A DNA stretch of 30,809 bases from a virus, in the IMG/VR virus record IMGVR_UViG_3300043419_001320, positions 1 to 30,809 of that record; one strand, given 5' to 3'. The translations under genes were made by a program, and so were the position numbers. How positions within the stretch are numbered: position 1 is the stretch's first letter; each line of letters begins with the position of its first letter. Positions 13,843-30,809 of this stretch are shown one piece after another. Under the pieces are notes generated by a model that was not told the origin of the DNA, made no database searches, and saw only the letters and a program-made list of their open reading frames with translations.

Positions 13843-13858
13843 AGTTTTGTTTTAATTT

Positions 13859-13889
13859 AAAAAAAGGGGCGGTAACTGGTACCACCCCC
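13859..13889 (-). terminator. Minus-directed intrinsic terminator after the tail tube gene
   Basis: On the minus strand GGGGTGGTA pairs with TACCGCCCC (nine pairs, one G-U) around a five-base loop, followed by seven T (13865-13859). On the plus strand the same site has a C-A mismatch, so it is built to work in the minus direction. It lies between the genes ending at 13923 and starting at 13842 and would reduce expression of portal and lysis genes. Confidence 0.85.
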
Positions 13890-13922
13890 TTCAATACACA
13901 ATGATACAACAGAACACAAAAA

Positions 13923-14498: not shown

Positions 14499-14512
14499 AT
14501 TTTTATAGTTTT

Positions 14513-14539
14513 AAAAAAGGGGGCTATTAACCCCCTTTT
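14513..14539 (-). terminator. Minus-directed intrinsic terminator after the capsid gene
   Basis: On the minus strand AAAAGGGGG pairs with CCCCCTTTT around the seven-base loop TTAATAG, and the T run continues to six T (14518-14513). It is ten bases past the capsid stop. The stem is symmetrical, so it could work on the plus strand too, but no plus gene is nearby. It would trim transcription after the most abundant structural protein. Confidence 0.88.
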
Positions 14540-14548
14540 GGTTAATGA

Positions 14549-15442: not shown

Positions 15443-15466
15443 ATTACTTTATTTTTTATTCTTTAA

Positions 15467-16060: not shown

Positions 16061-16120
16061 TTTTGGATATTTAGATAGATATAGACAATTTCAAAGTTTG
16101 TTTCATATAAAATATCATAA

Positions 16121-16149
16121 AAGAAAAAAGAGTCACCCGTTGGCAACTC
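16121..16149 (-). terminator. Minus-directed hairpin with T tract upstream of the scaffold gene
   Basis: On the minus strand GAGTTGCC pairs with GGTGACTC (eight pairs, two of them G-U) around the tetraloop AACG, followed by six T, C, TT (16129-16121). On the plus strand the two wobbles become mismatches, so it is directed to minus. It ends transcripts from the tail genes and protease, or acts as an attenuator if the -7-like element at 16209-16202 is a real start. Confidence 0.8.
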
Positions 16150-16201
16150 CTTTTCATTGTTTAAAACCTAAAACCAATTTACACACTAAACCAAGATGAC
16201 G

Positions 16202-16209
16202 CAAATTTA
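16202..16209 (-). promoter_or_regulatory. Possible minus-strand promoter -7 element after the protease gene
   Basis: On the minus strand TAAATTTG (16209-16202) fits TAnnTTTG and starts just after the protease stop. A CTTG lies about 24 bases upstream, slightly far for a -33. If active, it would give the scaffold and capsid genes their own transcript with a leader of about 130 bases that contains the hairpin at 16149-16121. Confidence 0.35.
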
Positions 16210-16216
16210 TATAAAA

Positions 16217-16807
16217 TCATTTTTTGAAATCAGCAAGTATTTGGTCTAATTCAAAAACCAATTCTGCTTCGTAGTTCTTTACACCACTCATAGCTACACC
16301 TACTTCGTTAAAGAAACCCTCAATACTATAACCTTTTACCTTACCTTCTTTAACATCATTCCACACGTGATCTTCATCAACCTTTGTTCCTATAAACCAT
16401 GTACCATCAGGCAGTTCAGGTAATCCAAGTTCTATACTTTTATCATTCTTGCCTTCCTTTAACCATGATTCTACAACTGTCACACCGGTTACTGGTATTT
16501 CATGTTGCAGGTTAGTGGTGTGTTGCAGATTCTTTTTGAAGAATTGATGCGCTATTGCCTGCACTGTTGCCTTTTCAAAGTACACATAGTACGGTTCGCC
16601 TTTGTCATCGTAACGCAGTATCTCCTTATCCGGGATTAACGCAGGACCATACAGCATTCTGCGTTCGTCATCGACTTTGGCAAGCTGCATCTTGCTCAAT
16701 GCAATCCAATTTTCTTCGATTGCTGGCATGTCTACTAAGCCCATTGCCGTAATACCTAAACGACCTTCTTCGTCAATTACACACTTAACTACTTTTCTCT
16801 TATCCAT
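16217..16807 (-). CDS. XkdF-like prohead serine protease
   Basis: The 196-aa product matches the XkdF-type phage protease family (peptidase S78_2), which trims scaffold and capsid proteins during head maturation. Family landmarks are VDMPAIEENWIALSK (25-39), MLYGPALIPDKEI, PYYVYFEKATVQAIAHQFF, NLQHEIPV with probable catalytic H102, VVESWLKEG with S114, LPDGTWFIGTKV and VKGYSIEGFF at 157-166. It precedes scaffold and capsid genes as expected. Unusually, the tape measure gene is directly upstream, so the tail module comes before the head module. The length fits a stand-alone protease. The call is strong; the exact catalytic third residue is not certain. Confidence 0.87.
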   Translation of the reverse strand: MDKRKVVKCVIDEEGRLGITAMGLVDMPAIEENWIALSKMQLAKVDDERRMLYGPALIPDKEILRYDDKGEPYYVYFEKATVQAIAHQFFKKNLQHTTNLQHEIPVTGVTVVESWLKEGKNDKSIELGLPELPDGTWFIGTKVDEDHVWNDVKEGKVKGYSIEGFFNEVGVAMSGVKNYEAELVFELDQILADFKK

Positions 16808-16825
16808 TTTACAAATTTAATTTAG

Positions 16826-18670
16826 TTATCCTATACGTGCTAAGTCTTCTACGTTCTCGCGTACTTCTTGCTGACTTGATACATCCCCTGCCAAAACATA
16901 CGCACGTGGTAAGTATTGATCAGGGCGATTTGCTACGAACTGCGCAGCAAATGGATTGAATGTTGCTGGTTGTGAACCGTTGTCACCTCCACCTCCACCC
17001 AGTGAAGGAGGTGTTGTGTTGTTATTGCCCGGTGTTGAACCACTACCTTGAAACTGCTGTGATGCGATTGTGGCAACGTTAGCAAGACCAGCAGCAACAG
17101 CTACACCAGCTGCTACAAATGGCGCAGCTGGAAATGCAACAGTAATTGGATTCTTTGCTGTGCTATTAAAAATTGAGTTAGCAGATTCATATGTACTAAT
17201 AGTTGCTTGTGCAATACTGATTGCCTTTTGTACCTTAAATGCTGCCTTTGCTGTCTTCTCGTTATTCTTACCAAATGCCGAAGTAATAGCTGCTATACCA
17301 TTCAGTGTTTGCTTTGCAAAATCTAACTTTTGCATCTGTGCATTCTTTTCAATTTGCGCAACTTCATCCGCATTCATCTGTGCAATAATTGCAAGCTGTT
17401 CGGCATTGCCTTTAGCAGCATCGCGCATAGCTGCATATTTTGCATCAGCCATGGCAATCTCTTTATCTACACCTTCCTGCATCAATTGAATACTAAAATC
17501 TTGTGCGCTTCGCTGCGCTTCTATTTCAGCATCAAAATCACTTATATCACTTTTAGCACTCTCTGGTTTAGTTTGGTCACCTTCAATTTGTGCTTTTAAC
17601 TTTTCACTTTGCTCATAAACCTGTCTGCGAATTTCCAACAAGCGTTGCCCTGCAGCTTCGAGTTTGCGCAGTCTATCTTCTTCGCGTTTTTGCGCATCGT
17701 CTTGCGCTTTTTGGTCTGCTTCACTAATCGTTTTGTTGATGTCACCTAATGCCTTATCGATGGCAGCATTTTCTTTGATAGCAGCGTCTAAACGTTGCTG
17801 TTGGTATTCATCCAACTTACCACCACGCTCAACAATTAGATTAGCTTGGTCAATTAAACTTTGATTAGCTTCTTTTACTTGATCGCTGTATTCTTTAAAA
17901 CGCTCACGCGCTTGCTTTAGATTGCCATTTGAAGCCTGTAGGATTTCTTGACTTTTTTTCTCTACATCACTACCTACAGTATTAGCATATTCCTTGACGT
18001 TATCTAATGCTTCCTTATTTTGTTGCTTAATTTTTTCGGCTTGCTCGGCTGCTTTTGTATTGGTCAATCCTATAGCATCGGATAATGAAAGCAAACTATC
18101 TTTAAGAAATGTAACAGAATCGGATATTCCTGTAAAGAAATCACCCAGTGCACCGCCCGAATTTTTAAGTGCCTCAAAGTTTGAAATGATTCCTACTAAA
18201 ACAGTCCCAAGTAAGAAAATAGGATTTGTCAATAGTGCCTTACCTAAAGTGCCCAGCGTAGAAGTCAAACCTTTTACACCTTCGCTTACATCCTTCAGCT
18301 TTATACTACCAGCATTCTGTGCAAATAATTTAGCACCTTCCGCAGCACCTTGAAAATCTAATGAAAATAAACGTGATGTAACAAGTCCTATAGAACCACT
18401 AACCTTTTCAAACGCACCACCTGCCTGTGTACCTACCGCTTGTGCTGCATCCTGAATCTTATCCTTTAGTTCCCCTGCTGCCTGCGATAAGTCACGATAT
18501 TTTTGCGTTTGTGGATCAGTGTTGGCTAACTGCTGTTGTAATTCACGCAACTGTGCTTTAAGCGATTTGCCAGCGTTATCTGCGCTATCAAAAGCACTAC
18601 CAAGTGCATTTAATTTTTGTTCACTTGATCCTGTGTCAATTTGAAAGGTCCGTACAATAGGTTCAGCCAT
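16826..18670 (-). CDS. Tail tape measure protein
   Basis: The 614-aa product is a rod-like tape measure, which sets tail length and is ejected during infection. It starts with the FQIDTGSSEQKLNALGSAFDSA motif and long coiled coils (LKAQLRELQQQLANTDPQTQ; about 220-460 rich in Q, E, K, A), hydrophobic segments at about 147-165 (NPIFLLGTVLVGIISNF) and 515-545 (VAFPAAPFVAAGVAVAAGLANVA), and a Gly-rich end (SLGGGGGDNG). At about 0.15 nm per residue it would give a tail near 90 nm, a rough estimate from the general rule. Start overlaps the upstream 57-aa gene (TAATG). Confidence 0.88.
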   Translation of the reverse strand: MAEPIVRTFQIDTGSSEQKLNALGSAFDSADNAGKSLKAQLRELQQQLANTDPQTQKYRDLSQAAGELKDKIQDAAQAVGTQAGGAFEKVSGSIGLVTSRLFSLDFQGAAEGAKLFAQNAGSIKLKDVSEGVKGLTSTLGTLGKALLTNPIFLLGTVLVGIISNFEALKNSGGALGDFFTGISDSVTFLKDSLLSLSDAIGLTNTKAAEQAEKIKQQNKEALDNVKEYANTVGSDVEKKSQEILQASNGNLKQARERFKEYSDQVKEANQSLIDQANLIVERGGKLDEYQQQRLDAAIKENAAIDKALGDINKTISEADQKAQDDAQKREEDRLRKLEAAGQRLLEIRRQVYEQSEKLKAQIEGDQTKPESAKSDISDFDAEIEAQRSAQDFSIQLMQEGVDKEIAMADAKYAAMRDAAKGNAEQLAIIAQMNADEVAQIEKNAQMQKLDFAKQTLNGIAAITSAFGKNNEKTAKAAFKVQKAISIAQATISTYESANSIFNSTAKNPITVAFPAAPFVAAGVAVAAGLANVATIASQQFQGSGSTPGNNNTTPPSLGGGGGDNGSQPATFNPFAAQFVANRPDQYLPRAYVLAGDVSSQQEVRENVEDLARIG

Positions 18671-18843
18671 TAGTAGATGAGTTTATAGATTAAATAAATA
18701 ACACTTAGTCCGAGCAATATGCGCCATGTATACAGTGTAACATACCATAACAAACGCTGCCATTTGCGTAGTGAGTAGTTATGTTCATTCTTTGTTGCGA
18801 TGCCAAGCTGGATGTAGCGCATTGAGTTTTTGATTGAATCCAT
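18670..18843 (-). CDS. 57-aa tail-region membrane-type protein
   Basis: A short frame starts at ATG 18843, one base after the upstream stop, and ends at TAA 18672-18670, overlapping the tape measure start. The product has a basic, aromatic first half (MDSIKNSMRYIQLGIATKNE, LRKWQRLLWYV) and a hydrophobic end (WRILLGLSVIYLIYKLIY) that could span a membrane. Its perfect fit between two large tail genes supports it. It might be a membrane or tail-tip component; no family recognised. Confidence 0.6.
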   Translation of the reverse strand: MDSIKNSMRYIQLGIATKNEHNYSLRKWQRLLWYVTLYTWRILLGLSVIYLIYKLIY

Positions 18844-18844
18844 T

Positions 18845-21800
18845 TTATGCTGTTTTTGATTGTTGGTATTGTAGTGAAGATGTGATTAGGAAGCCATCTG
18901 GATAACTTCCACCTGTAAACGTGATATTTATGCGATGTTCATCTGTGTCTGTTGTCGTATCGATTCCAAATGTGAAGACATTTGAACCGATTGAACCTAT
19001 TGTGCTTAGCGTAGTAATTGCACTGGCTGTTGCAATGCCACTTGTCTTATCAAGTGTGAAGTGATGAATAGAAGTTTCACTTGCTCCTGTTGTGTCTTTT
19101 ATAGTTACATTCCAAAGGCAACTCCATAAGGTTTCATCAGGTAGATTTATATATTCACCAGCCACGCCTTCGATATATAAATTTTGAGTTGAACCCGAAG
19201 TTAAGACAGTGACTAAACGTTGCAGCACAAATGTTCCAAATTGCGCCCACCCGTAATAAGGTGCAGTTGGATTACCACCACGATAACCACCACCTATGTG
19301 CAAGCCGGGTAGATTAGTTTCTACGTTTTTACCTAATGCATTGCTATTTGTATTAGATTTAGTTATTCTTAAATTACTTCCAACGGCTAATAGATTGCTA
19401 TTCGGGGATTCAATTAAGACATTGCCGCCTTGAATAACAGAATTCTCAATGGATAAATTACCTGATTGTGCTGCGCTCATTTGACCATTCAACATGGCTG
19501 TAGATTGATCAACTAATGAACTGCGGAATTGACCACCATTATTAAATGCCCAACATACACCATTGCTTTCATCCCAAAAATATCCATATCGTGAACAGCA
19601 ATCTTCTGTCGATTCTACAGGAGTACCATCGCTTTCAAATTGAACTTCTCCATTTGTGGTAATACCTACAGGTGTAGATGAACAGTCATTGATTTGATCA
19701 AGAAACTTAATCAATTTGACCTTTGTACTTTCCTGTAATCCTACTTTATAATCACTGATTTCAAGTATGCGCCAATAGCTGTCCTGAATCCAAATCTTAT
19801 CTGCAAAGCTGAATGTAAGTATATCCTTTAAGTCAAGCGCAAAGAATGCTTCCATTATTCTACCTTCAGGAGAATAAATCTCATTCATGTAATTGCGCCA
19901 ATACAAGTTAAACAGATTATTGTAAGGATTGGCTTGCACCGTTTGTACGTGTGGTGGCGTTTCAGGAGCCCAGTTTAAATCAAAATCTTTAACATTTGGA
20001 TAAGCATCGCTATAGTGATTTAGTATTGGAACTAATGTAATTGGTGATGCACTATTAGTTACATCGTTATACAAATTTACCTCCACAATCCCAGCATAAA
20101 ACAAGGCACGTGGACCGGGTGCAACAAATTCTATATTGTCATTGTAGAAACATTGAATTGGTGCAGCACTGCCCGGTAGCATTGCAGCAGGTGCGCTACG
20201 TGTTACAAGGCTAATCTTTTGATCACCTATAGCAAAGTCACTTGGAGCAGTTGATGGATTGATTGTGTAACCTTCAGCTTTAAAATCACCATATACACGA
20301 CCAGCATCACGATATAATTTGCTGTATGCGTCTTCCCCAGCTGTATAGGTAAACTGAAATGTTGCTTTTTGTATATCTACCGTACTTGAAATAACAACAT
20401 CTTTTGATATGTCTAATTTGCTAGTCCAATCTACTACATCACCTGTACCTAAATAATTGTTTTGCGGAATGATTGCTATTTGATTCGGTACAATTCGACT
20501 TGGTATGATTGCGCAGTTATGCATCTTAACTACGTCATTGACAAAATCAATCTGTCGCATATTAGGCGCATTCAAAGAATACGAAATAATTTGACCAGTA
20601 TCTAGTACAATGTTTGTTAAAGCAATATACGAACTATTTAACTCTCCTGAACTAGTTGGAATTTGTATGGTGGCAGTACCTATGTTAATCCAAAAGCCAG
20701 GACCTTCAGCACCTTGTGGACCAACAGAAACTGTACTGAAATTACGCGATACTGGTTGCAATTCAAATTTGACAATGTCACCAGATGCTAGATAAACACT
20801 ATAAGTAAAAGAAAAAAAAGTAAGATTAGTACCTACATTAGGTTGAAAAATAACAGTGCGAACTCCATTTATATTGATTGCTATGTTGACTCGTTGACTA
20901 AAAATTACGTTACTTTCAGCTATTGTTTGAAATCCGAATTGTCCAGCAAAGGTATATGTGCCAGCGCCCGGAACGGTGTATGTTCCTGTTCCAGCAGTAA
21001 AATCACCATTGTTATCAAATACTTCAGTCAATAAGTTATACGTTACAAATGGTCCAGAACCAACTTGTGGATCTGAACTGGTACTAAATACAAATGGAGT
21101 AGCATTGTAAGCGCGGAAAAAGTATTGATTTATATCACCGTCAATCCACAACTGCGGTGTATTGCAAAACGGCATCCAATAATCATTAAGTATGTTTTCA
21201 AGTGAAGATGCAACAAGGTCAAATCCTGCTTCCTTTACAATGTTGCGCAGCAGAAACCACCAACTCACGGCAGGTGTCAAATCAGCAGGATAAATTGGTG
21301 CATTTACATCGCGAATAGGTCGAGAACCGGAACTTTGATCATTGCTCCACTTTTGCGCACGATCACAAAGCGACCAAATACGGTCTGCTGTTTCAGTTGT
21401 TACATTTGCATATGTAATAGCTTCATTCAAATCCGCAAGTGCAGCAATATCACTTAGCTTCTTCTCGCCAATTGTGCGCACTAAGTCAGGTGTTTCAGCA
21501 TAGAAGGCTACCTCTACTTCATTAATGCGATTCATTTGCTTGTACACCTTGCGCACACGCAAATAACCACTAGCAATCGGTAGCGTATCTACACGAATCT
21601 CAGCAGGCAGTTTGTAAAAGAAATAGTTTTCCGCACCCTGTTCGGAGTTAGTATCGAATAATGGACCGATAGCTTTGATGTTGTTATCGGACATCGGAAT
21701 GCGAAATTCACGACTGAATGCGCCCTGTGCCGTGAAGTTGGATAAATCTTGAAACTTCCAGTTCTGCGAGATACTTTCGTTTTCGAATAGGTCAAGATAA

Positions 21801-22117
21801 CTATCTGCAACGATGAGCGTGTAAGCGTAAATAGAAACACCTTCATCGGTAACATTTGATGTGAATGGTTGGTCTACTGTTATCTCACCTGTGACTGTAT
21901 CGTATGCTGTAACATATCGCGTAAACAAAACAATTTCAGGCGAAACGCTTTGGTCGATGATTTCAATTTTGCTGCCTATTGTATAGAATGTTTCTTGTCC
22001 GGGACCACCAAAGCAAAAACTATCACCTGAAACAATAGGTGCGGTCAACGCGTCTGTTAATGTTGGAATTGTAGATACTTGCTCGCTTCTTACTATTAGT
22101 TGTACTTCTCCGTTCAT
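18845..22117 (-). CDS. Large tail hub / tail-tip structural protein
   Basis: This 1090-aa product is the largest in the window. The N-terminal half has conserved blocks I associate with Bacteroidota phage tail proteins: IVADSYLDLFENESISQNW, FSREFRIPMSDNN, YLRVRKVYKQ, and later WWFLLRNIVKEAGFDL and WIQDSYWRILEIS. These suggest a central tail hub contacting the tape measure. The last 300 residues include a repetitive beta-solenoid-like stretch (GNLSIENSVIQGGNVLIESPN, then GSNLRITKSNTNSNALG, LPGLHIGGGYRGG), like receptor-binding or self-processing tail-tip modules, and a beta-sandwich end. No catalytic domain is clear. It is two bases after the distal tail gene. The exact tail role is inferred. 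Confidence 0.72.
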   Translation of the reverse strand: MNGEVQLIVRSEQVSTIPTLTDALTAPIVSGDSFCFGGPGQETFYTIGSKIEIIDQSVSPEIVLFTRYVTAYDTVTGEITVDQPFTSNVTDEGVSIYAYTLIVADSYLDLFENESISQNWKFQDLSNFTAQGAFSREFRIPMSDNNIKAIGPLFDTNSEQGAENYFFYKLPAEIRVDTLPIASGYLRVRKVYKQMNRINEVEVAFYAETPDLVRTIGEKKLSDIAALADLNEAITYANVTTETADRIWSLCDRAQKWSNDQSSGSRPIRDVNAPIYPADLTPAVSWWFLLRNIVKEAGFDLVASSLENILNDYWMPFCNTPQLWIDGDINQYFFRAYNATPFVFSTSSDPQVGSGPFVTYNLLTEVFDNNGDFTAGTGTYTVPGAGTYTFAGQFGFQTIAESNVIFSQRVNIAININGVRTVIFQPNVGTNLTFFSFTYSVYLASGDIVKFELQPVSRNFSTVSVGPQGAEGPGFWINIGTATIQIPTSSGELNSSYIALTNIVLDTGQIISYSLNAPNMRQIDFVNDVVKMHNCAIIPSRIVPNQIAIIPQNNYLGTGDVVDWTSKLDISKDVVISSTVDIQKATFQFTYTAGEDAYSKLYRDAGRVYGDFKAEGYTINPSTAPSDFAIGDQKISLVTRSAPAAMLPGSAAPIQCFYNDNIEFVAPGPRALFYAGIVEVNLYNDVTNSASPITLVPILNHYSDAYPNVKDFDLNWAPETPPHVQTVQANPYNNLFNLYWRNYMNEIYSPEGRIMEAFFALDLKDILTFSFADKIWIQDSYWRILEISDYKVGLQESTKVKLIKFLDQINDCSSTPVGITTNGEVQFESDGTPVESTEDCCSRYGYFWDESNGVCWAFNNGGQFRSSLVDQSTAMLNGQMSAAQSGNLSIENSVIQGGNVLIESPNSNLLAVGSNLRITKSNTNSNALGKNVETNLPGLHIGGGYRGGNPTAPYYGWAQFGTFVLQRLVTVLTSGSTQNLYIEGVAGEYINLPDETLWSCLWNVTIKDTTGASETSIHHFTLDKTSGIATASAITTLSTIGSIGSNVFTFGIDTTTDTDEHRINITFTGGSYPDGFLITSSLQYQQSKTA

Positions 22118-22118
22118 G

Positions 22119-23423
22119 TTATGTCCAGTATTCGTTAGCCATTCTTACTTTCAAAGACAGATTGTACAACTTGCCGTCACGTGTCTTGCGTTCCGTGTAT
22201 GTAGTATCGTCTAAGTTTACGGGTAATGCAATGTTGTTACCACTAAAATCAGTGGTAAGCCACACAACTTGATTGCTAACTAACAATGATCTCAAGAATA
22301 AAAATTCACCTTCTTGAATGTAGTCACTTGTAACTGTTAGCACTTGTTGCACTAAGTTTCTACGCTCATATAAACCCCTGTCATCTTTATTAAATATGCT
22401 TGTTGTACCATTGAATAAAACTTTACGGTACTTCTTACGTTCAATTTCATCATTCATTTCGGATTTCTTGATGAAGTTGAAGTAATCCCAACCACCGCGA
22501 CTATTTACCCAACCTAATCTAATCTTATCATGTTGGCAATCTTTTTGACCATAATATGCTGCGTTGTAAAATCTATATTTAGCACTTCTTTGAGTGTTAC
22601 TTTCACGTAGCCATACTTCATAATATCTCCAACCAGGATTATTATTTTCATTAGGTTGAATAGGCAATCCTGTCCAATCATTAAGATTACCAGGATAAAC
22701 AGGTAATGCTTCAATATCATAACCCGATAAACTAATGGTTGATGTAATAGTAGAACCGTTTGCCTTATACATCACAATACGCATATTATCAATTACATTA
22801 TTGAACATGTAGATATCATTACCAGGTATGCTTAACGTGCCGTAATCATTTTCAAAAGAAGGTATCCATACTACTCCAGCGTTAGTTGGATCACCAGCAT
22901 TCCACGTGTTTGATAGACGGCAAGAATGAGTCGTGATCAGTCTATCACTCATAGCGTAATTGGCACTAAACTGCAAAACGTATTTAATGCGATCATTACC
23001 TATTTCAGGATTTGGCTTGTATCCATCAAACACTTGATAATAACCATTGATGACAATGCGACCACTTGTAGTTACTTCACTACCTTCATTCTCCGTTAAA
23101 ACAAGTCCCTGACCTGGTACATTAACTAACCACCATTCAGTTATTGCTGCACTCAAAGCGTACTTGCTTAAGTCATCTACAGTGTTATCAGTAGCAAAGT
23201 GATGTTGTTGGTTGCGAAGATCATCTACTAGCGGTGAAATATCGAAGTACATATTTCCATCTGGAGAAGGTGTCAAATAAAACTGATATGTCTTAGCATC
23301 AACTGTAATCACTAAGCCATACCTAAAACCAAGTTGTGCGGTTTCTGTACTGGATGCAATAAGCATAATCTTTTGTCCACGAACTACCCAATTAAATGGT
23401 TCATCTACGATTGTTAACGCCAT
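22119..23423 (-). CDS. Distal tail (Dit-like) structural protein
   Basis: The 434-aa product begins MALTIVDEPFNWVVRGQKIML and ends VNLDDTTYTERKTRDGKLYNLSLKVRMANEYWT. Beta-rich throughout, with conserved blocks DGNMYFDISPLVDDLR, YFNFIKKSEM, DRGLYERRNLVQQVLTVTSDY and LRSLLVSNQVVWL. Proteins with this signature lie between the tail completion and tail hub genes in Bacteroidota phages and are probably distal tail or baseplate hub-ring subunits; I know of no firm experimental role. The 1-nt and abutting junctions with both neighbours show a single operon. Confidence 0.65.
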   Translation of the reverse strand: MALTIVDEPFNWVVRGQKIMLIASSTETAQLGFRYGLVITVDAKTYQFYLTPSPDGNMYFDISPLVDDLRNQQHHFATDNTVDDLSKYALSAAITEWWLVNVPGQGLVLTENEGSEVTTSGRIVINGYYQVFDGYKPNPEIGNDRIKYVLQFSANYAMSDRLITTHSCRLSNTWNAGDPTNAGVVWIPSFENDYGTLSIPGNDIYMFNNVIDNMRIVMYKANGSTITSTISLSGYDIEALPVYPGNLNDWTGLPIQPNENNNPGWRYYEVWLRESNTQRSAKYRFYNAAYYGQKDCQHDKIRLGWVNSRGGWDYFNFIKKSEMNDEIERKKYRKVLFNGTTSIFNKDDRGLYERRNLVQQVLTVTSDYIQEGEFLFLRSLLVSNQVVWLTTDFSGNNIALPVNLDDTTYTERKTRDGKLYNLSLKVRMANEYWT

Positions 23424-23954
23424 CTATCTTTTGTTTAATAGTAATCTTTGTTCAATATCTTTCACATAGGCATTCATTAGCCTATCCTTATACTCATCCC
23501 ATGTATCATCTATGGCTTCACCATAATAGTTGATCCCTTGGATCCCTCTTTCACCTATGCTAATGGCTATTCGTCTAGCTGCTGATCTTAAAGCCGTTTC
23601 TGTCGTTTTAATAAATTGCCCCTGATTATTTCTTAATCTTAATCTCTTTACTAATAACCATTTGTATATTTCTTCAATTGGTGGTCTTTTATTTGGTTGT
23701 CCTGGATATGGCTTACGACCAAATTCAATTACATCAGCATATTTACCAGCTTGATCGTTGTCTACAGTAAAGTCAATAGTAGCCTTTCCATATCTCATCC
23801 GTATTTTGTACACCAATGAATTATGCAACTTTCCTGAAGCATAACGATTCACTACTTTGCCGCGTACTCTACGCTTAATACGCAGATTTGATTGTGCTCT
23901 TTCAACAACTTTAGCTGCATATTCGTTTAGTATTTGATCAAATTCACTTGCCAT
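23424..23954 (-). CDS. Tail completion / head-tail joining protein (gp10-like)
   Basis: The 176-aa basic product starts MASEFDQILNEYAAKVVERAQSNLR and includes VVNRYASGKLHNSLVYKI, a beta strand FTVDNDQAGKYADVIEFGRKPYPGQP, a helical region with QGQFIKTTETALRSAARRIAISIGERGI and a basic end. The helix-strand-G-x-Y-A-x-x-x-E-F-G pattern is that of HK97 gp10-type tail completion or connector proteins, which terminate the tail or join it to the head. It overlaps the upstream fibre gene by one base. Likely tail completion protein; level of certainty is moderate. Confidence 0.68.
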   Translation of the reverse strand: MASEFDQILNEYAAKVVERAQSNLRIKRRVRGKVVNRYASGKLHNSLVYKIRMRYGKATIDFTVDNDQAGKYADVIEFGRKPYPGQPNKRPPIEEIYKWLLVKRLRLRNNQGQFIKTTETALRSAARRIAISIGERGIQGINYYGEAIDDTWDEYKDRLMNAYVKDIEQRLLLNKR

Positions 23955-26590
23955 TATGCTACCTCCTCAAATTCTAAGATTGAACCAGCTTTGATTGTAA
24001 GCAATCCACTTACTGATGATATAACACTCATGCTTAAATTGCCATTTGCCGTAGGTTGGAAAATTCCATCTGCAGTCGCTATTCTTAATGTAGTTGACAT
24101 TAACACGGCACTGCCTACGTTATGCGCTATATTGTTGTTAATCGTATTAGTAGTACCACCTGTTCCGATTGTAAAACGATACGTAGTTGGGCCAGTTGGC
24201 CCTGACGTAGAAAGCATACCATTCGTACTACCCGTAGCAATCATTAAGATAGTCGCTCGCCACTTATACGTTTTTCCCGCAGTCACCGCAAACGAAAGTC
24301 CTGTGATATTTTGATATGCCGTGCCACTGGTTACATAGTCGCTCGTCAATACCGCATAACCTCCAACTCCAATATCTGCTTTCAATTCAGCAAGTGTTAA
24401 AGCAGAAACAGTGTTATCGCCATTGATGCGCAAATAACGTGTTGCACTTGGATTCGGTAGCGTTGCAAGAAAAGTTCCTACTGTCGTGAATCCAACAGCA
24501 TTCTGCTTACCATTAAACGTTGACCAATCCGCGCTGCTCAATGCACCGCGATTCGCTGCGCTCGCTGTTGGCAGGTTAAATGTATGTGTGCTTCCTGTGC
24601 TGCTTATTGCGAAGTCAGTACCTGCTGTGCCTGTTGCAAAGTTTTGCGTGGATGCAGTCAAGCCATTAAGCGAAGACAATCCGATTGCGTAGGTAGTATG
24701 CACTTCACCAATCTTACCATTTTCCGTATATAGGGTTACAGTCTTACCATTGGTATTTTGAATATCGAATTCAATGTGAATTCTGTCGGTTGCAGCTGTG
24801 ACTGTGTTGGGAACGGATACGCTGAAAGTGTACAAATCAGGTACGCTTCCATTAGTAATTTCTTCTATCGGTGAAGTAGCTACCAGTGTAAACGTGCTTC
24901 CGTTATATGTGTAAACTTTTGCAAGTATTTGAGCATGGTTTGAACCACCACCTGTTTCACTTAAGTAGACATCAATAGTCCATACACCTGAAGGTAAGAT
25001 AAGATGGTTTGGGCTGCCTACATCGGTAATGAATCGTGCAAGTACACCAGTAGTATTACGTGTGAAATTTGCTGATGGTCCTGTATTAGCAGTCGTGCCT
25101 AATTGATAGTAGGCATTGCCTCCTATTGAAGGTTGCGCAACATTACCATTGAAGTAGAATATTTGCCCACCTCCACCACCTGTTGAAGGCAATGTGCGCA
25201 GTGCTCCTGTTCCATCTATATATTGATCTACTGTACCATTAGCCTTAACATCAAGTGTGCCCGATATCGTAACAGGTGAACCAGTTACACTAAACGCAGG
25301 ATTCGTTGGTGCAGGCATTGAAAGACCAACCGAAGTAACCGAACCACCTGAAGCAGGTGTAGTAGCTTCCCAATCTCCTGAAGTGCTGTTATAACTTAGC
25401 ACCTGCCCGTTTGAAGGTGTGGGTGCGTTTACATCCGCTAAGTCATCAAGGTTAGTTGGTATACTTGGCTGATTGATTAAGTCAGTATAATCTCCTGTCG
25501 TGGCAACGGTGGCAAGCGGTACGTTCTCAAATTTATTTGTGACGCTATCGTAAATGAGTGTATCTCCATTCGCAATTGTGGTGATTTGCACGTCTAACAA
25601 ATCATCAATAGCAAGTCCGCTAATTACTTCCCAATTAGTATCACCACGTTGAATCAACTGCCCCTTAGTTGTACCTGGCAATAGATCGTCAAGCGAATCT
25701 GGAATGTTTGGTTTATTTAGTATTTGATAGTCACCACTTGTTGCGTTCCAATCAACAGGTGTTTGGCGTAAACGATAACCAACCGCAACCAAAGTCCAGT
25801 ACGTTGGATTTGTTGGGTTGATTGCGTCATTGTTGGCAATGCATCTGTAAACACTTCCGTTATACCAAACGCGGTCACCTATTTGATACGGATTGCCTTG
25901 TGCTGTTGTGTGATTTGCGTTCCATTCGGTACTAACATATTCACCACCTCCTCCTCCTCCACCTGCTGCATCTATTGTAACACTTCCATCTCCATTATCA
26001 GTTATGGTTATGTTCGTGCCTTCTACTAAATCAAGTATGTTTTGAACTGCGTTATCTACGCCATTGGTGCGAAGTGTCAAGCCGTAACCCGTACCACTAC
26101 CACCACTTGATGAACCACCCACTGTCCACACAGCAGGTATATCACATGCTGACCAGTCCCATGGTACTTCTAATTGAATAGTGAAAGCTACACCAGTTAT
26201 AGTGTTTTTGTACTCCTCAATGAATGGTTCAAATGTAGGATTGTTTACCATCTGAACATCAAAACCAAAAAGCTGCAATCCATTGCGTACTTCAGCAATT
26301 AAGTCTTGTCCTAATCTAACGCAATCACTGATTACTTCACGCTGATATTCTGCCTTATATTCTTTGTCACGTGGAATATCGGCAAACATGATCATAAAGC
26401 CAAATTGCATTCCACCTTGAACTGGAGTGATAGTGTCTGGTGTTACGTGCATGAATGGGTATTGATCATCCTGCAACTGATCTGCAAGGTCAATCTGCCC
26501 ATGTGTGAAACGCTTAATCAAAAAGTGACCAGCGGCGAAAGCTTCAAGTCGATTGATAAGTACGTTATAACTATAATTGTAGCTTGTCAT
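23954..26590 (-). CDS. Tail-completion-like domain fused to a tail fibre with carbohydrate-binding module
   Basis: The 878-aa product has an N-terminal domain (1 to about 155) with YNVLINRLEAFAAGHFLIKRF, YPFMHVTPDTI, FGFMIMFADIPRD and ITGVAFTIQLEVPWDW, a type I know as a separate tail completion/neck protein in Bacteroidota phages. After Gly-rich linkers (156-170 and 209-216) comes a CBM5/12-like module at about 218-268 (PYQIGDRVWYNGSVYRCIAN, NPTYWTL). Then fibre repeats follow (TSGDYQILNKPNIP, TTGDYTDLINQPSIP, LDDLADVNAPTPSNGQVLSYN) and a beta-rich receptor-binding end. It probably binds host surface sugars. The frame overlaps the frameshifted chaperone stop as ATGA. Domain calls are from memory and composition. 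Confidence 0.75.
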   Translation of the reverse strand: MTSYNYSYNVLINRLEAFAAGHFLIKRFTHGQIDLADQLQDDQYPFMHVTPDTITPVQGGMQFGFMIMFADIPRDKEYKAEYQREVISDCVRLGQDLIAEVRNGLQLFGFDVQMVNNPTFEPFIEEYKNTITGVAFTIQLEVPWDWSACDIPAVWTVGGSSSGGSGTGYGLTLRTNGVDNAVQNILDLVEGTNITITDNGDGSVTIDAAGGGGGGGEYVSTEWNANHTTAQGNPYQIGDRVWYNGSVYRCIANNDAINPTNPTYWTLVAVGYRLRQTPVDWNATSGDYQILNKPNIPDSLDDLLPGTTKGQLIQRGDTNWEVISGLAIDDLLDVQITTIANGDTLIYDSVTNKFENVPLATVATTGDYTDLINQPSIPTNLDDLADVNAPTPSNGQVLSYNSTSGDWEATTPASGGSVTSVGLSMPAPTNPAFSVTGSPVTISGTLDVKANGTVDQYIDGTGALRTLPSTGGGGGQIFYFNGNVAQPSIGGNAYYQLGTTANTGPSANFTRNTTGVLARFITDVGSPNHLILPSGVWTIDVYLSETGGGSNHAQILAKVYTYNGSTFTLVATSPIEEITNGSVPDLYTFSVSVPNTVTAATDRIHIEFDIQNTNGKTVTLYTENGKIGEVHTTYAIGLSSLNGLTASTQNFATGTAGTDFAISSTGSTHTFNLPTASAANRGALSSADWSTFNGKQNAVGFTTVGTFLATLPNPSATRYLRINGDNTVSALTLAELKADIGVGGYAVLTSDYVTSGTAYQNITGLSFAVTAGKTYKWRATILMIATGSTNGMLSTSGPTGPTTYRFTIGTGGTTNTINNNIAHNVGSAVLMSTTLRIATADGIFQPTANGNLSMSVISSVSGLLTIKAGSILEFEEVA

Positions 26591-26856
26591 CTATTCCTTT
26601 TTTTCATTTCCATTTTCTGCACATACACGTAGTCTGCTAAGTACGTTAAGTGTGTGAACACTTCATAACAACTTCTCTCAGTAACAGCGTCAAACTTAGT
26701 AATATCTCTATCTGCTAAGCTTTCAATAATATGAAACCAACCATAAACACCTAAACCGTCTGGGGTTGCTGTTCCTTCATCTCCTTCACTATCTCCGTTA
26801 TCTCCTTGGCCAAATAAACGAGGGAATCGTTGTACAGTTCTAGTTCTAAAGTCGAA
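26587..26856 (-). CDS. Tail assembly chaperone, -1 frameshifted C-terminal part (GT-like)
   Basis: In the -1 frame relative to the chaperone gene at 27353-26751, an open frame runs from just after a TGA near 26901 to TGA 26589-26587, overlapping the fibre start. It has no usable ATG/GTG/TTG before its conserved-looking part (GLGVYGWFHIIESLADRDITKF, CYEVFTHLTYLADYVYV). A -1 slip on the T run at 26863-26855 would join residue 166 of the upstream protein to 89 residues here, making a 255-aa fusion. This is how many long-tailed phages make the minor GT chaperone that bridges tape measure and tail tube protein. Confidence 0.75.
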   Translation of the reverse strand, partial: FDFRTRTVQRFPRLFGQGDNGDSEGDEGTATPDGLGVYGWFHIIESLADRDITKFDAVTERSCYEVFTHLTYLADYVYVQKMEMKKRNR

Positions 26857-27353
26857 AAAAAAAGCAATGTATTTAACACGTGATCTAATGTTAGTTCACT
26901 TATTGCATTTTCGTACTTCCTTTTGTCATTAGTCTTATATGCTTCAATGTCATAATACTTACCAAACTTTGCAACAATAGGTCTATATAGTATTGACATC
27001 ATTTTGTGAGCAGCTTCACCCATGATAGTTCCATCTTTATAGATATTGGTACAAGTCGTGTCCAAATCTACATATTCGCCAAATGACATAGCACTCAGAT
27101 CAGGAATAAATCCTAATTCATATGTACCAACACGTACTGTTCTTTCAAAATCTTGACTGGTTAGTCTTATAGCGGCTTCAAACTGCTCAATAATCTCATC
27201 AATGACATGTAACTGTAAGAATCTAATGCTTTCAGTACTTTTGCCAGTTATAACCCTTACTTTTTCTATGTTATCAACAGCATTTTGATAGTCGATGTAC
27301 TTGCCAAGTGTAATACCTTTTGCGTTGGCAGCTATCTCAAAATTGAGTTTCAT
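26751..27353 (-). CDS. Tail assembly chaperone (gpG-like)
   Basis: The 200-aa product has the features of tail assembly chaperones of Bacteroidota phages: an N-terminal NFEIAANAKGITLGKYIDY, then LSAMSFGEYVDLDTTCTNIY, GEAAHKMMSILYRPIVAKFGKYYDIEAY and a helical end. Such proteins coat the tape measure and recruit tube subunits. Nine T on the minus strand at 26863-26855 encode LFF at residues 164-166, where a -1 slip would give the longer product. After the slip site the frame continues for 34 residues, including a Lys/Glu-rich helix ending QQPQTV. Position before all tail genes agrees. Confidence 0.8.
   Translation of the reverse strand: MKLNFEIAANAKGITLGKYIDYQNAVDNIEKVRVITGKSTESIRFLQLHVIDEIIEQFEAAIRLTSQDFERTVRVGTYELGFIPDLSAMSFGEYVDLDTTCTNIYKDGTIMGEAAHKMMSILYRPIVAKFGKYYDIEAYKTNDKRKYENAISELTLDHVLNTLLFFSTLELELYNDSLVYLAKEITEIVKEMKEQQPQTV
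26855..26863 (-). other. Slippery T9 run, predicted -1 ribosomal frameshift site
   Basis: On the minus strand the upstream reading frame is CTT TTT TTT TCG. The heptamer T TTT TTT allows both P- and A-site tRNAs (Phe) to re-pair in the -1 frame (TTT TTC GAC). The -1 frame is open from about 26900 to 26587. I did not find a clear downstream pseudoknot or stem by eye. Confidence 0.7.
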
Positions 27354-27384
27354 CTATTAGTATGTAGAATTTATGAGTTTTTTG

Positions 27385-27675
27385 TTACAAGTCTGGATGG
27401 ACTTGAATAATTACTGGTGATTTTTCATCACCCGAGTGAGTTATACGGGCTTGTTTTGGCTTGAAGTATTCCAATACATCTAAAGCCAGAGAAGATGCCT
27501 TAAACTTAAGATCTTCATCTCTAGAATCCATACACTCATCTATAAATGTAGCAACCTTAGGTAAGGCTCTTGCCACAAACTCTCGACCAAATTCTTCCCA
27601 TTCTAATGTTTTTTTATTCAAAGTCCCAAGTGGTCTACCATTAGGATTGTTAGTCATTCCTTTTTGAAGTCCCAT
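27385..27675 (-). CDS. Small terminase subunit-like protein
   Basis: The 96-aa product starts MGLQKGMTNNPNGRPLGTLN, the NNPNGRPxG motif found at the start of many phage small-terminase or DUF5681-like proteins. It is followed by two helices (WEEFGREFVARALPKVATFIDEC, LKFKASSLALDVLEYFKPK) and a short beta tail. It would recognise phage DNA for packaging by TerL. Here it lies in the minus late unit while terL is in the plus unit about 5 kb past the other end of the window, an uncommon split. The role is based on motif and size, not proven. Confidence 0.65.
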   Translation of the reverse strand: MGLQKGMTNNPNGRPLGTLNKKTLEWEEFGREFVARALPKVATFIDECMDSRDEDLKFKASSLALDVLEYFKPKQARITHSGDEKSPVIIQVHPDL

Positions 27676-27699
27676 ATTTGTTATTTTGTTGTTTACAAG

Positions 27700-27840
27700 T
27701 TATTTTTCTTTGTACTGAGCTATGCATACAGCTAAACGTTGTTGCGAGTCAGGGAATTCACTTTGTGTTTTCGCATCACTCATGCATCTAGCTATAAAGT
27801 CGTTCTTTGATTCTTTTGCTGTAGGTGTTGGTAATGGCAT
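27700..27840 (-). CDS. 46-aa protein with FIxRCM...FPDxxQRxAVC motif
   Basis: A short frame from ATG 27840 to TAA 27702-27700 encodes a product with KESKNDFIARCMSDAKTQSE and FPDSQQRLAVCIAQY. This ESxxxFIxRCM...FPDxxQRxAVC signature is one I know as a very common short phage module, usually fused to prohead proteases, portals or other head proteins; its function is not known to me. Here it stands alone between a Zn-type protein and the small-terminase-like gene, which again ties it to packaging or head assembly. The two conserved Cys (C19, C39) could form a pair. Confidence 0.75.
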   Translation of the reverse strand: MPLPTPTAKESKNDFIARCMSDAKTQSEFPDSQQRLAVCIAQYKEK

Positions 27841-27844
27841 ATTG

Positions 27845-28294
27845 TTATGGTTTATCTATTTTGCTTAATTGTCTATAGAATTCGTTAATTAGATCACGTA
27901 CACAAGAGGCGCATGTACTAGGGCGCTCGTACTTTTTCGTTATTTTACTGTACCATTGGTATAGTATTTTCAAGTCTTCTGATTCTATTCTGTTGGTCTT
28001 ATTTATGCGTTGAATAAATGCATCAAGTTCTGCTATTTCGTTTGGTTGCATATCTTGAGCAAACCACTTTCGTGCTGGGCATGATGCAAAGCGGAACTTT
28101 GTCTTCACGTCCATGAAGCATCCACAAAGCTTTATCTTCTCTTTGTAATAGGTAACATCATTTTCTTCAGCGTTGATGTTATTGCCTACTATAGGTGTAC
28201 CACATGTGCCAAATGTAGCATTGTAGAACTTGCATTTTTTACAAATGCTTAATCTTTCTCTCTGGATTTGTAATGGAACGTTGAAGTTTAACAT
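27845..28294 (-). CDS. Cys-rich zinc-binding phage protein (149 aa)
   Basis: The N-terminal half carries many cysteines: C18 and C21 (SICKKCKFYN), C31 (TCGTP), C57 and C59 (KLCGCFM), C72 (SCPARKW). The C-terminal part has a helical region and C128/C131 (STCASCVRDLINEF). The RLxICxxCxxx...CGxP...LCGCfM...CPxxKW pattern is familiar from Bacteroidota phages, where it is annotated only as hypothetical or zinc-ribbon. It overlaps the sigma-like gene by 56 bases and precedes packaging genes, so a packaging or late-transcription role is plausible but unproven. Confidence 0.72.
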   Translation of the reverse strand: MLNFNVPLQIQRERLSICKKCKFYNATFGTCGTPIVGNNINAEENDVTYYKEKIKLCGCFMDVKTKFRFASCPARKWFAQDMQPNEIAELDAFIQRINKTNRIESEDLKILYQWYSKITKKYERPSTCASCVRDLINEFYRQLSKIDKP

Positions 28295-28799
28295 ATTCTC
28301 TTATTCGTTTTAATGCTCGATGTATGCTGATTCGTAGGTAGTTGTATGGTATACCTGTTTCTGCGCTTAATTGTTGGTAATTGAAATCCGGTTTTGAATA
28401 TAGACGTAAAAGTATAGCATCAAACTCATTTAATCTTCCTATTGCGTTGTATAGATATTCACCATCTATAAATGCACCAATCCAAGTTTCATCTGTTGAT
28501 TCTAATTGTTTTGTTGATTGTTCTACTACAATATATTTTTTATATAGGGAATAATAATCACTTGACGAACTATACCATGATAGCCACATTGATCTGCTTA
28601 TATATCCATTTAGGTTTCCTTCGTTGTAAATGTGTAGTTGCTTGTCTTTATTTTTATTGAGAAATCTAATTAAAACAGTATGCAATAACTCTTCTGAACG
28701 TACTTTGTCTTTAGTTAGAAACATAGCTTTCTTTAACCACTCTTGATAGTTATCATTTATGAATTCATTGAGTGATTTTTTATTCGCATTTTGTTTCAT
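28239..28799 (-). CDS. Sigma-70-like late transcription factor
   Basis: From ATG 28799 the 186-aa product looks like an ECF-type sigma factor. A helical region-2-like part (about 11-75, FINDNYQEWLKKAMFLTKD, SEELLHTVLIRFL, NLNGYISRSMWLS) is followed by a linker and a region-4-like helix-turn-helix at 118-168 (IGRLNEFDAILLRLYSK, YQQLSAETGIPYNYLRISIHRALKRI). It would redirect host RNA polymerase to late genes, and it is the first gene of the late minus unit, so the unit could be self-amplifying. The frame is open to 28919, but the 28799 start keeps the promoter outside. Region 2 is divergent, so a sigma-like regulator other than a true sigma factor is possible. Confidence 0.72.
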   Translation of the reverse strand: MKQNANKKSLNEFINDNYQEWLKKAMFLTKDKVRSEELLHTVLIRFLNKNKDKQLHIYNEGNLNGYISRSMWLSWYSSSSDYYSLYKKYIVVEQSTKQLESTDETWIGAFIDGEYLYNAIGRLNEFDAILLRLYSKPDFNYQQLSAETGIPYNYLRISIHRALKRIREYVKLQRSITNPERKIKHL

Positions 28800-28822
28800 T
28801 TGAAAAAAAATACATATATTTG
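28790..28822 (+). promoter_or_regulatory. Rightward promoter of the divergent switch
   Basis: TTTG (28790-28793), 21-base spacer, then TATATTTG (28815-28822), matching the Bacteroidota -33/-7 consensus. The start would fall near 28829, about ten bases before ATG 28840 of the Cro-like gene. The -33 element lies inside the first codons of the sigma-like gene. Confidence 0.75.
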
Positions 28823-28830
28823 CAAATATA
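28815..28830. repeat. Perfect 16-bp palindrome formed by two abutting -7 elements
   Basis: TATATTTG followed directly by CAAATATA reads the same on both strands. It sits centrally between ATG 28799 (minus) and ATG 28840 (plus). It can be both the two -10/-7 boxes and an operator for a dimeric regulator. Confidence 0.85.
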
Positions 28831-28856
28831 CATTTTTTTATGAAGCCGTTTGCAAA
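28823..28856 (-). promoter_or_regulatory. Leftward promoter of the divergent switch
   Basis: On the minus strand TTTG (28856-28853), 22-base spacer, then TATATTTG (28830-28823). The start would fall near 28816, about 17 bases before ATG 28799 of the sigma-like gene. The -33 element lies within the Cro-like gene. Confidence 0.65.
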
Positions 28857-29085
28857 AATTATTTTATCAAAGTCAAAAAACATTAGTGAGTTCACGAGAA
28901 CTTTAAAGTCAAAGGGCATTAAGGTTACTTATCGTACAGTTCAAAATTGGATTGATGATCCTTCCAAAATTCAAAGTAAAAACATACCTGTGATTTTGGA
29001 TGTTTTGCAAATTCAAGCAAATGATTTTTTATCCATTGTAAAGTATGACCAGAAATGCGTTAATGATATTTCATCACAAGAGTAA
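28840..29085 (+). CDS. Cro/CI-like HTH regulator (81 aa)
   Basis: The 81-aa product has a helix-turn-helix-type domain: NISEFTRTLKSKGIKVTYRTVQNWIDDPSKIQSKNIPVILDVLQIQANDFLSI. The R-T-V-Q-N-W recognition-helix pattern and the I-P-x-I-L-x-V-L end are those of XRE/Cro-type repressors. It begins the plus unit right at the divergent promoter palindrome, so it could repress one or both promoters by binding there. Whether it switches early to late genes or controls lysogeny is open; no integrase is present in the window. It overlaps the next gene by 41 bases. Confidence 0.78.
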   Translation: MKPFAKIILSKSKNISEFTRTLKSKGIKVTYRTVQNWIDDPSKIQSKNIPVILDVLQIQANDFLSIVKYDQKCVNDISSQE

Positions 29086-29500
29086 GAGGAAGATCACTTC
29101 TAAGGAATTTGATTTTATTCAACAGAACTTTAATAAGCTTCCTTTTCAGCATTTACGTAAGAAGTTAAAAGTTCAAGATTCAACTTTGTATGAATGGCTA
29201 TTAGATGTTTTTAAGTCTAATCATTCATCATTTGATTATAATGAACTACAAGAAGTTCTTAGATACAGGTTTTTTTTAGTTGAAATAGCAGACATTGTTT
29301 ATTTAGTTGAATTTGATGAAGCTGTTGTAGCTTCGAATATAAAGTTCTGTCCTATTAAGTTAGGTGTTGATTACAATGTTAGTGTTTTAGGCGATTATGA
29401 ATTTCATAGATTGAAAAAAGATCTGTATGTGTTTAGAATAGAAGTTTCTAATAATTACGTATATGATTTTTGGTCTACAACTCAATTTTTTCTAACATGA
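29045..29500 (+). CDS. HTH-containing hypothetical early protein (151 aa)
   Basis: The first third resembles a helix-turn-helix (ITSKEFDFIQQNFNKLPFQ, then LRKKLKVQDSTLYEWLLDVF), and the rest is beta-rich (FFLVEIADIVYLVEFDEAVV, LKKDLYVFRIEVSNNYVYDFW) like a ligand- or protein-binding domain. It may be a transcription regulator acting with the preceding Cro-like protein. ATG 29045 lies inside the preceding gene; an in-frame ATG at 29063 is an equally good start. The stop overlaps the nuclease start (ATGA). Family not recognised. Confidence 0.65.
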   Translation: MTRNALMIFHHKSKRKITSKEFDFIQQNFNKLPFQHLRKKLKVQDSTLYEWLLDVFKSNHSSFDYNELQEVLRYRFFLVEIADIVYLVEFDEAVVASNIKFCPIKLGVDYNVSVLGDYEFHRLKKDLYVFRIEVSNNYVYDFWSTTQFFLT

Positions 29501-29859
29501 AGCACGAAGAGAGCAAGATCCAGCAGCAATGTGTTCAGTGGTTTCGTTATTCGTTTCCAAAGAAATTGATTTTTGCCATACCTAATGGTGTTCTAATTGG
29601 CGGTAATCAACTTCAACGCATTAAAAGATGGAATATATTGAAAGCAGAAGGTGCCACGTCTGGTGTGCCCGATTTGCTTATTTGCTTTCCATCAGGTCAG
29701 TATCACGGTTTGTTTGTAGAAATGAAGACAGAAAAAGGTAAACTATCTGAAGCACAAAAGACAATTCATAGTCAGTTGATAAATTCAGGTTATTGCGTTA
29801 AGATTTGTAGATCTTTAGATGATTTCATTCAAACTGTTCATAAATATGTAGATCTTTAG
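29497..29859 (+). CDS. VRR-NUC domain nuclease (120 aa)
   Basis: The single-domain 120-aa product is a VRR-NUC nuclease, a PD-(D/E)XK enzyme common in phage replication modules and thought to cut branched DNA. Motifs are an N-terminal acidic residue (E4 or E5, KHEESKIQQQ), AIPNGVLIGG, GATSGVPDLLI with D59, and FVEMKTEKGKLSEAQ with E75 and K77, then GYCVKICRSLDDF. Start ATG 29497 overlaps the upstream stop. The frame is open from 29470, but this start matches the domain start. The replication gene after it has its own promoter. Confidence 0.88.
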   Translation: MKHEESKIQQQCVQWFRYSFPKKLIFAIPNGVLIGGNQLQRIKRWNILKAEGATSGVPDLLICFPSGQYHGLFVEMKTEKGKLSEAQKTIHSQLINSGYCVKICRSLDDFIQTVHKYVDL

Positions 29860-29888
29860 TTGTTCTATCATACATATGCATATATTTG
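29860..29888 (+). promoter_or_regulatory. Putative promoter of the replication gene
   Basis: TTG (29860-29862), 18-base spacer, then TATATTTG (29881-29888), followed by CATCATACATAAAAACTC and ATG 29907. This is one of the best -33/-7 matches in the window and separates the replication gene from the nuclease. Confidence 0.65.
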
Positions 29889-29906
29889 CATCATACATAA
29901 AAACTC

Positions 29907-30659
29907 ATGGCAAAAGATCCTGCTTTCCTTTTTTACTACCAAGATTTCTTAGTTGGTACTGATGATATGACCAATGACGAAGTTGGTGCTTACATTAGGT
30001 GCTTATGTCATCAGGCTTCAAAAGGATCAATAAGTGAAAAACATATGATGAAGATATGTTTAAGACATGATGTGTTTGATGCTGTTGCTTTAAAATTTGA
30101 TCGTGATGAGAATAACAACTTTTGTAATGAAAGATTGTCTATTGAAATCAATAAACGTAAAGCTTTTGCGGAATCAAGAAGGAATAACAGACTAAAAAAA
30201 TCATATGAAAAAGATATGATTGACATATCTAAAACATATGATGAACATATGGAAAATGAAAATGAAAATAAAAATATAATTAAAAATAAAAAAACTACAA
30301 GCAAAAAGTTTGTGAAGCCAAATGAAAATGAAGTGTACAACTTAATGGGAGAACTTAACGTTAAAGGTGGAAGCTTTCTGACAGAAGATAAGTTAGTTAA
30401 TTTTGCACGCACTTTCATTGATTATTATGAAGCAAAAGGATGGGTGATAGGAAGATCTCCAATGAAAAACTGGAATAGCGCTGTAAGAAATTGGATGCGC
30501 AAAGAATGGGACAATTTAAAAAATCAAAAACCAAATGGATACACAAAACAATCAACTTCAACAGCAGACAGCGTTGCAAAAGCTAATCAACTTTTCGCCG
30601 AAGCAGTCGCTATCAGTCGCGCACGCGATAACACAAGACAAGATTTCTCTGCTTCGTAA
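29907..30659 (+). CDS. Replication initiation / replisome organiser-like protein
   Basis: The 250-aa product has an N-terminal winged-helix-type domain (DUF1376-like: DPAFLFYYQDFLVGTDDMT, DEVGAYIRCLCHQASKGSIS), a low-complexity Asn/Lys linker (about 112-135, ENENENKNIIKNKK) and a C-terminal region with FIDYYEAKGWVIGRSPMKNW and AVRNWMRKEW like DnaD/phage replication proteins. Such proteins bind the phage origin and load the helicase. The linker is made of AAT/AAA/GAA codons. It has its own promoter and is followed 31 bases later by a gene cut by the window end. Confidence 0.82.
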   Translation: MAKDPAFLFYYQDFLVGTDDMTNDEVGAYIRCLCHQASKGSISEKHMMKICLRHDVFDAVALKFDRDENNNFCNERLSIEINKRKAFAESRRNNRLKKSYEKDMIDISKTYDEHMENENENKNIIKNKKTTSKKFVKPNENEVYNLMGELNVKGGSFLTEDKLVNFARTFIDYYEAKGWVIGRSPMKNWNSAVRNWMRKEWDNLKNQKPNGYTKQSTSTADSVAKANQLFAEAVAISRARDNTRQDFSAS

Positions 30660-30690
30660 GATAGATAGACAAACAACTAAAGAAAAAATC

Positions 30691-30809
30691 ATGCAACTGG
30701 TTACAAGATGTACTCAGTTAGTCAATGTACAGAACAACATGAATGCTATGCAAATTGAATTCTGTGCAGAGAATATCCTAGAAAAAATGTGGATGTATTC
30801 ACTTGAAGA
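30691..30809 (+). CDS. Hypothetical protein, N-terminal part (3' end outside window)
   Basis: ATG 30691 follows an AAACAACTAAAGAAAAAATC leader, and the frame stays open to the window end (39 codons). It starts MQLVTRCTQLVNVQNNMNAM and continues ENILEKMWMYSLE, a helical pattern. It resembles the start of small Bacteroidota phage/plasmid proteins in which a 'YxxLxLExI' helix precedes a replication-related domain, but that is a weak recollection. By position it is probably a replication-module gene. Confidence 0.5.
   Translation, partial: MQLVTRCTQLVNVQNNMNAMQIEFCAENILEKMWMYSLE

Follow-up and report, generated by a model that had tools for sequence, protein, structure and literature searches.

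The 40-bp space between a sigma-70-like gene and an XRE/Cro-type gene in this virus is, in our assessment, probably a shared but biased promoter region from which transcription of both halves of the genome starts. The window examined here is a virus record of 30,809 bases, over whose full stretch all positions are counted. Its strong genes from 28840 rightward, through the window ends and on to 8754, all lie on the plus strand, and those from 28799 down to 8809 all lie on the minus strand; the 40-bp space is therefore the only point of divergence in the genome. In a related contig, with matched ends 97–99 % identical to those of the window, the two window ends are separated by ~1.8 kb of genes on the plus strand, indicating that the window represents a genome of ~32 kb opened within its plus unit.

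From the 40-bp space, ~12 kb of replication genes (plus strand) and 20 kb of structural and lysis genes (minus strand) diverge. The early unit begins at 28840–30809 (+), runs on through the ~1.8 kb missing from the window and continues at 1–8754 (+) with genes encoding SSB-like, TerL, RecT, exonuclease, MazG-like and thymidylate synthase proteins. The late unit (8809–28799, −) encodes the sigma-like, tail tape measure, capsid-like, virion, portal and endolysin proteins, and the two units meet at an intrinsic terminator (8779–8808, +). Within the late unit, two G-C-rich hairpins with T-runs on the minus strand, just upstream of 14498 and of 13842, flank a 191-aa gene located after the capsid-like gene and are likely terminators that grade late expression. 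The early unit also carries a beta-glucosyltransferase-like gene (6344–7372; phrog_7922, E 7e-29), suggesting that the phage may modify its DNA.

The intergenic space (28800–28839) has the sigma-70-like gene (−) on one side and the XRE/Cro-type gene (+) on the other, and holds a 16-bp perfect palindrome, TATATTTGCAAATATA (28815–28830, no strand), composed of two abutting −7 boxes, as an earlier note on this DNA had described. The box of the early (plus) promoter, TATATTTG, occupies 28815–28822 (+), and its exact inverse at 28823–28830, with zero bases between, is the same TATATTTG box of the sigma/late (minus) promoter. Both conform to the −7 element TAnnTTTG, with no G at either n. Because TANNTTTG shows no enrichment across the window (32 found versus 44 expected), box matches alone were discarded as promoter evidence. 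In a window of the same composition, a facing TAHHTTTG pair with a gap of 0–14 is expected 0.115 times and a gap-0 pair 0.013 times; for a facing pair in the 67-bp stretch, P is ~5e-4 at local composition.

Further early-type −7 boxes were identified on the plus strand: a second TATATTTG at 29881–29888, 26 bp before the ATG at 29907; TATATTTG at 3397–3404, 28 bp before recT (3425); and TAAATTTG at 4320–4327, 25 bp before the exonuclease gene (4345). Host-type boxes thus stand 25–28 bp before four plus genes (28840, 29907, 3425 and 4345), and the only late genes preceded by one are the sigma gene and 16807, where the box is very near the start codon. The four early boxes (28815, 29881, 3397 and 4320) have TAWATTTGCA in common, with CA right after the −7 element.

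Each box has a TTTG at 21–22 bases, again in agreement with the earlier note: the candidate −33 element of the plus promoter (28790–28793, +, 21-bp spacer) lies within the first codons of the sigma-like gene, and that of the minus promoter (28853–28856, −, 22-bp spacer) within the Cro-like gene. Since a TTTG at 17–23 bp has a probability of ~5 % (+) or ~2.5 % (−) in this window, these elements are only mildly unlikely by chance and are weaker evidence than the box pair. Nor does the combination TTTG-N18-24-TANNTTTG show enrichment, with 4 occurrences in the window against 2.45 expected. In Flavobacterium johnsoniae, the promoter consensus TAHHTTTG lies at −12 to −5, leaving 4–5 nt to the start, and the −33 motif is generally weak (PMC6847099). 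Applying this geometry, with a Bacteroidota host inferred from the promoter type, predicts starts at ~28827–28828 (+) and ~28817–28818 (−), 1–2 bases inside the positions proposed earlier (28829 and 28816). The predicted starts, read from the sequence only, are ~9–11 bp apart and each falls within the opposite box; two open complexes should therefore be unable to coexist, and the overlap geometry would exclude simultaneous binding of polymerase at both promoters.

A search with the sigma-like protein returned 80 loci, two of which share 98 % identity with the window, against 53–61 % for the others. The two near-identical contigs were the only matches of the P0002 query among viral contigs, no relative was found in INPHARED protein searches with P0001 and P0002, and a genome-contig scan of bacterial genomes with the sigma alignment likewise returned none. 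The relatives represent a family of uncultured phages, probably of Bacteroidota to judge from the promoter type. Counting the window, 67 of 70 distinct regions (66/69 distinct relatives) have facing TAnnTTTG boxes ahead of the sigma-like gene, as do five of six further loci beyond these regions. These counts do not represent independent events, as the relatives share ancestry. They support the earlier proposal of divergent host-type promoters with overlapping cores between the replication and structural units.

The distance between the boxes varies: gaps of 0 (one region), 1 (7), 6 (1), 7 (42), 9 (1), 11 (2) and 12 bp (13) were recorded, gap 0 being confined to the window and its two near-identical contigs. 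On the sigma-gene tree the gap length changed at least eight times with both boxes retained. On both strands, TA..TTTG is constant in the relatives and the middle bases and the gap are variable (the early-strand box is TAGATTTG in some); hence, conservation applies to the promoters and does not extend to the exact palindrome. The sigma-strand box is retained in 68 of the 70 distinct regions, including L073, in which its partner is degenerate. L027, L064 and L096 are without the whole promoter block, the loss running from the first codons of the divergent gene to near the early box, which may reflect either a natural deletion or an assembly fault. As a control, no TAHHTTTG was present within 170 bp upstream of three later late-unit genes (52–60 sequences each). 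The window gene at 2953–3294 is 92 % identical to its counterpart in L019, against only 53–61 % likeness between the two groups in the sigma-like protein, and we read this identity as a recent exchange within the phage group.

In the relatives, the two promoters are unequal. On the early side, a TTG is found at 19 bp from the box in 60/66 and at 17–23 bp in 63/66 (shuffled control: mean 8.3, maximum 16). On the sigma side, a TTG occurs in 20/66, which equals the shuffled mean (20.0) and places the −33 element at chance level; in Flavobacterium columnare, a −7-only promoter functions and absence of the −33 goes with low expression (PMC2483708). The start position of the sigma frame in the 69 distinct relatives is ATC (38), ATA (4) or TTG (27), a single conserved position that often lies two codons past a stop, and no ATG or GTG is found ahead of the conserved part of the frame in 69/69. 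The neighbouring orthologues start with ATG (g149, 69/69; g200, 59/59; VRR-NUC, 56/56). An ATG in an alternative frame was considered for the sigma gene and rejected, as only about half of the relatives with ATC, and none of those with ATA, have an overlapping ATG frame. The base at −3 of the relatives' sigma start is mostly C or T, and in F. johnsoniae A at −3 favours translation initiation; the leader is ~46–87 nt. Taken together, the relatives' sigma gene looks weak in both its promoter and its translation start. The window itself, having TATATTTG as both boxes, TTTG on both sides and ATG as the sigma start, does not display this asymmetry.

The late unit opens with the gene for the sigma-70-like protein (186 aa; 28239–28799, −), which is similar to two-domain ECF factors. 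The window protein matched a PHROG sigma factor (E 9.5e-8), and Pfam Sigma70_r4_2 was detected in 24/24 family members (best 1.5e-5), with the window protein under the Pfam cut-off; sigma region 2 was detected in only 3 of the 24, weakly. Fold matches of its predicted structure were ECF factors (best E 0.003, from a model with a low overall pLDDT of 68).

These observations bear on the claim that polymerase on one promoter must block the other, making the site an either/or switch. Overlap would indeed prevent simultaneous binding; the switch is not established by it, given that the relatives show a bias and that in E. coli all five bidirectional promoters tested were transcribed in both directions with no competition at the basal level, competition appearing once one direction was activated (PMC12825309). 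The claim is thus too strong, and the shared region is likely a weighted junction, early strong and sigma weak, rather than a proven either/or switch. The same E. coli data favour a simpler account that we regard as somewhat unlikely, namely plain compact divergent promoters serving head-to-head genes, both active, with an overlap of no regulatory meaning. Bidirectional promoters are common in bacteria, phage genomes are compact and the spacing of the boxes varies freely between 0 and 12 bp; yet the gap never exceeds 12 bp despite the relatives' longer intergenic region, and the asymmetry is consistent among relatives, which also possess the candidate operators described below.

The first early gene of the window, third in the relatives, encodes an 81-aa XRE/Cro-type helix-turn-helix (HTH) protein (28840–29085, +). 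Its AlphaFold2 model has a five-helix XRE-like fold (pLDDT 83), and the top PDB folds returned by Foldseek were XRE regulators, including TP901-1 MOR (TM up to 0.64, E-values >0.6); the predicted structure thus contains the helical HTH of the XRE type. Pfam HTH_3 was weak in 3/18 family members and returned nothing for the window protein. A profile match of E 3e-32 to the window protein proved false, as the profile included a near-identical copy; with this copy removed, homology was recovered at E 0.0015 among the window's frames with filters off, and default filters gave no match to the window's Cro-type protein. We therefore base the equivalence of the window and relatives' proteins on synteny, since a g151 homologue and VRR-NUC follow. 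Homologues of the relatives' first two early genes sit at 2673–2930 and 2953–3294 in the window, indicating that a rearrangement brought the Cro-type gene beside the promoter.

In the relatives, one dyad, GKGTACAAATNTACAC, lies on the early −7 and another, GTGCAANNNNTTACAC, on the early −33; a single further match was found in 383 kb. Where the second dyad is present, the encoded recognition helix is I[VT][KR]KT, and at the other loci it is ISDRT, IAVKT, ITERT or VTLKT, the dyad class agreeing with the recognition-helix class in 57/58 relatives. On trees, this co-variation amounts to 2–4 supported independent changes, all in the same direction, so that significance is unreachable (sign test not significant), and linkage could explain it because helix and dyad lie within ~0.8 kb of each other. 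Dyad A, an early-promoter dyad in the relatives, overlaps the initially transcribed bases of the sigma promoter, and its binding could therefore block both directions. In the window, three of the four copies of TTTGCAAA cluster locally (no strand): a candidate operator at the palindrome centre (28819–28826), a copy 30 bp away over the minus −33 (28849–28856) and one near the end of the Cro-like gene (29004–29011). The local expectation is 0.1 per kb and the clustering has a post hoc P of ~7e-4 or less.

Co-variation and motif clustering are suggestive of a Cro-type operator at the shared promoter region, a plausible candidate. The specific proposal that the palindrome is this operator fares less well, as the palindrome is unconserved and the dyads over the early −7 and −33 appear to be better candidates in the relatives than the abutted boxes. 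It is unlikely that a Cro-type operator repressing one or both directions is the main role of the palindrome, or of the repeated TTTGCAAA, the box likeness of one strand being secondary. Such a role would suit the TTTGCAAA cluster near the junction and the predicted XRE/Cro fold of the 81-aa protein; against it, the window's other three early boxes have no second half, gap 0 is limited to the window lineage, and the relatives' sigma-strand TA..TTTG, with its free middle and varying distance, behaves as a promoter element and not as a fixed half-dyad.

A second conserved promoter inside the late unit was also sought, and only AAAACTACAATA before g200 stood out. This block lies at 27354–27384, between the 96-aa and 200-aa (g200) late genes, is found at the same place in relatives (55/56 distinct sequences), and is possibly a late promoter or a translation signal. 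That late transcription starts at phage-sigma-dependent promoters elsewhere, the sigma-strand box being an accident of the early leader, is improbable: the relatives' chance-level sigma-strand −33 and the AAAACTACAATA block, which could be another kind of promoter, would fit, but the box is kept in almost all regions with nothing comparable ahead of other late genes, and −7-only promoters work in F. columnare, with the −33 weak in F. johnsoniae generally.

Returning to a shared, biased promoter region, from the sequence, conservation, asymmetry and layout observed at the junction we infer how its activity, polymerase competition, repressor binding and timing would combine. Two Bacteroidota housekeeping-type promoters would face each other at a site that, by its geometry, one polymerase at a time can open. 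Rightward transcription would yield the Cro-type protein and the replication genes, and leftward transcription the sigma-like protein and the structural genes. Early expression would dominate at first, given that the relatives pair a complete early promoter with a −7-only sigma promoter and a non-AUG sigma start. As it accumulates and binds the dyads covering the early −7 and −33, the Cro-type protein would lower the early direction and let the sigma direction rise, after which late transcription would be continued by the sigma-like factor. We put forward more tentatively the further idea that in a widespread phage group the facing pair is kept unequal by selection and so times the genome, through an early promoter with both elements, a late promoter with the −7 alone, an AUC/AUA-started sigma gene and a fast-evolving Cro-type protein that changes together with its operators.

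If this reading is correct, 40 bp would suffice to launch the two halves of a 32-kb phage's programme, and the junction would be a simple natural setting in which to ask whether competing polymerases at overlapping promoters set the timing of expression in organisms other than E. coli. It would also be the first early/late control map for this phage group, which is probably of Bacteroidota and is not represented among the annotated phages searched. A regulatory gene with a conserved AUC/AUA start would be highly unusual among bacteria and their viruses.

The junction resembles the bacterial bidirectional promoters described by Warman, Grainger and colleagues (PMC12825309, PMC10268837) in that its core elements are nearly symmetric between the strands and a single polymerase would occupy the site at once. 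It differs in using TAnnTTTG and two abutting boxes instead of one shared −10; the boxes are separate (28815–28822 and 28823–28830) and lie up to 12 bp apart in relatives. The predicted start spacing in the window, ~9–11 bp, compares with E. coli bidirectional classes of 18, 10 and 23 bp. In contrast to the bidirectional definition (starts 7–25 bp apart), the predicted starts of most relatives are 2 bp apart or overlapping, gap-7 and gap-12 pairs falling outside it. Moreover, each arm of the junction serves an entire half of a phage genome. The Pc/Pr switch of pLS20 with Rco (PMC4207663) likewise has overlapping, divergent and unequal promoters, one of which makes the regulator of the region; however, it is a plasmid conjugation switch with two operators, DNA looping and no sigma factor. 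We found no evidence of looping at the phage junction.

Switches of the lambda, 186 and TP901-1 type express a Cro/XRE-type protein from one of two opposed promoters, and a lambda-type lysis/lysogeny switch comprises two opposing repressors and an integrase. The junction shares with these a Cro-type protein made from one opposed promoter, with a predicted fold near TP901-1 MOR. It has one XRE gene, and no second repressor or integrase was found among the proteins scanned against PHROGs, the window being ~1.8 kb short of the genome. As the genes at the head of the opposed unit encode a sigma factor and structural proteins, the choice here would be early/late and not lysis/lysogeny. With no shared −10, looping evidence or integrase found, the junction does not appear to be a member of these known systems. 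A further likeness is to Bacillus subtilis sigG (PMC5942855), a late sigma gene kept weak by a suboptimal promoter and a non-ATG start that are conserved across species. There, a GTG/TTG start, poor promoter spacing and a leader hairpin are involved, and in the phage relatives the lack of a −33 and AUC, AUA or UUG starts; if our reading is true, the phage sigma gene would be held back at several levels, in parallel to sigG.
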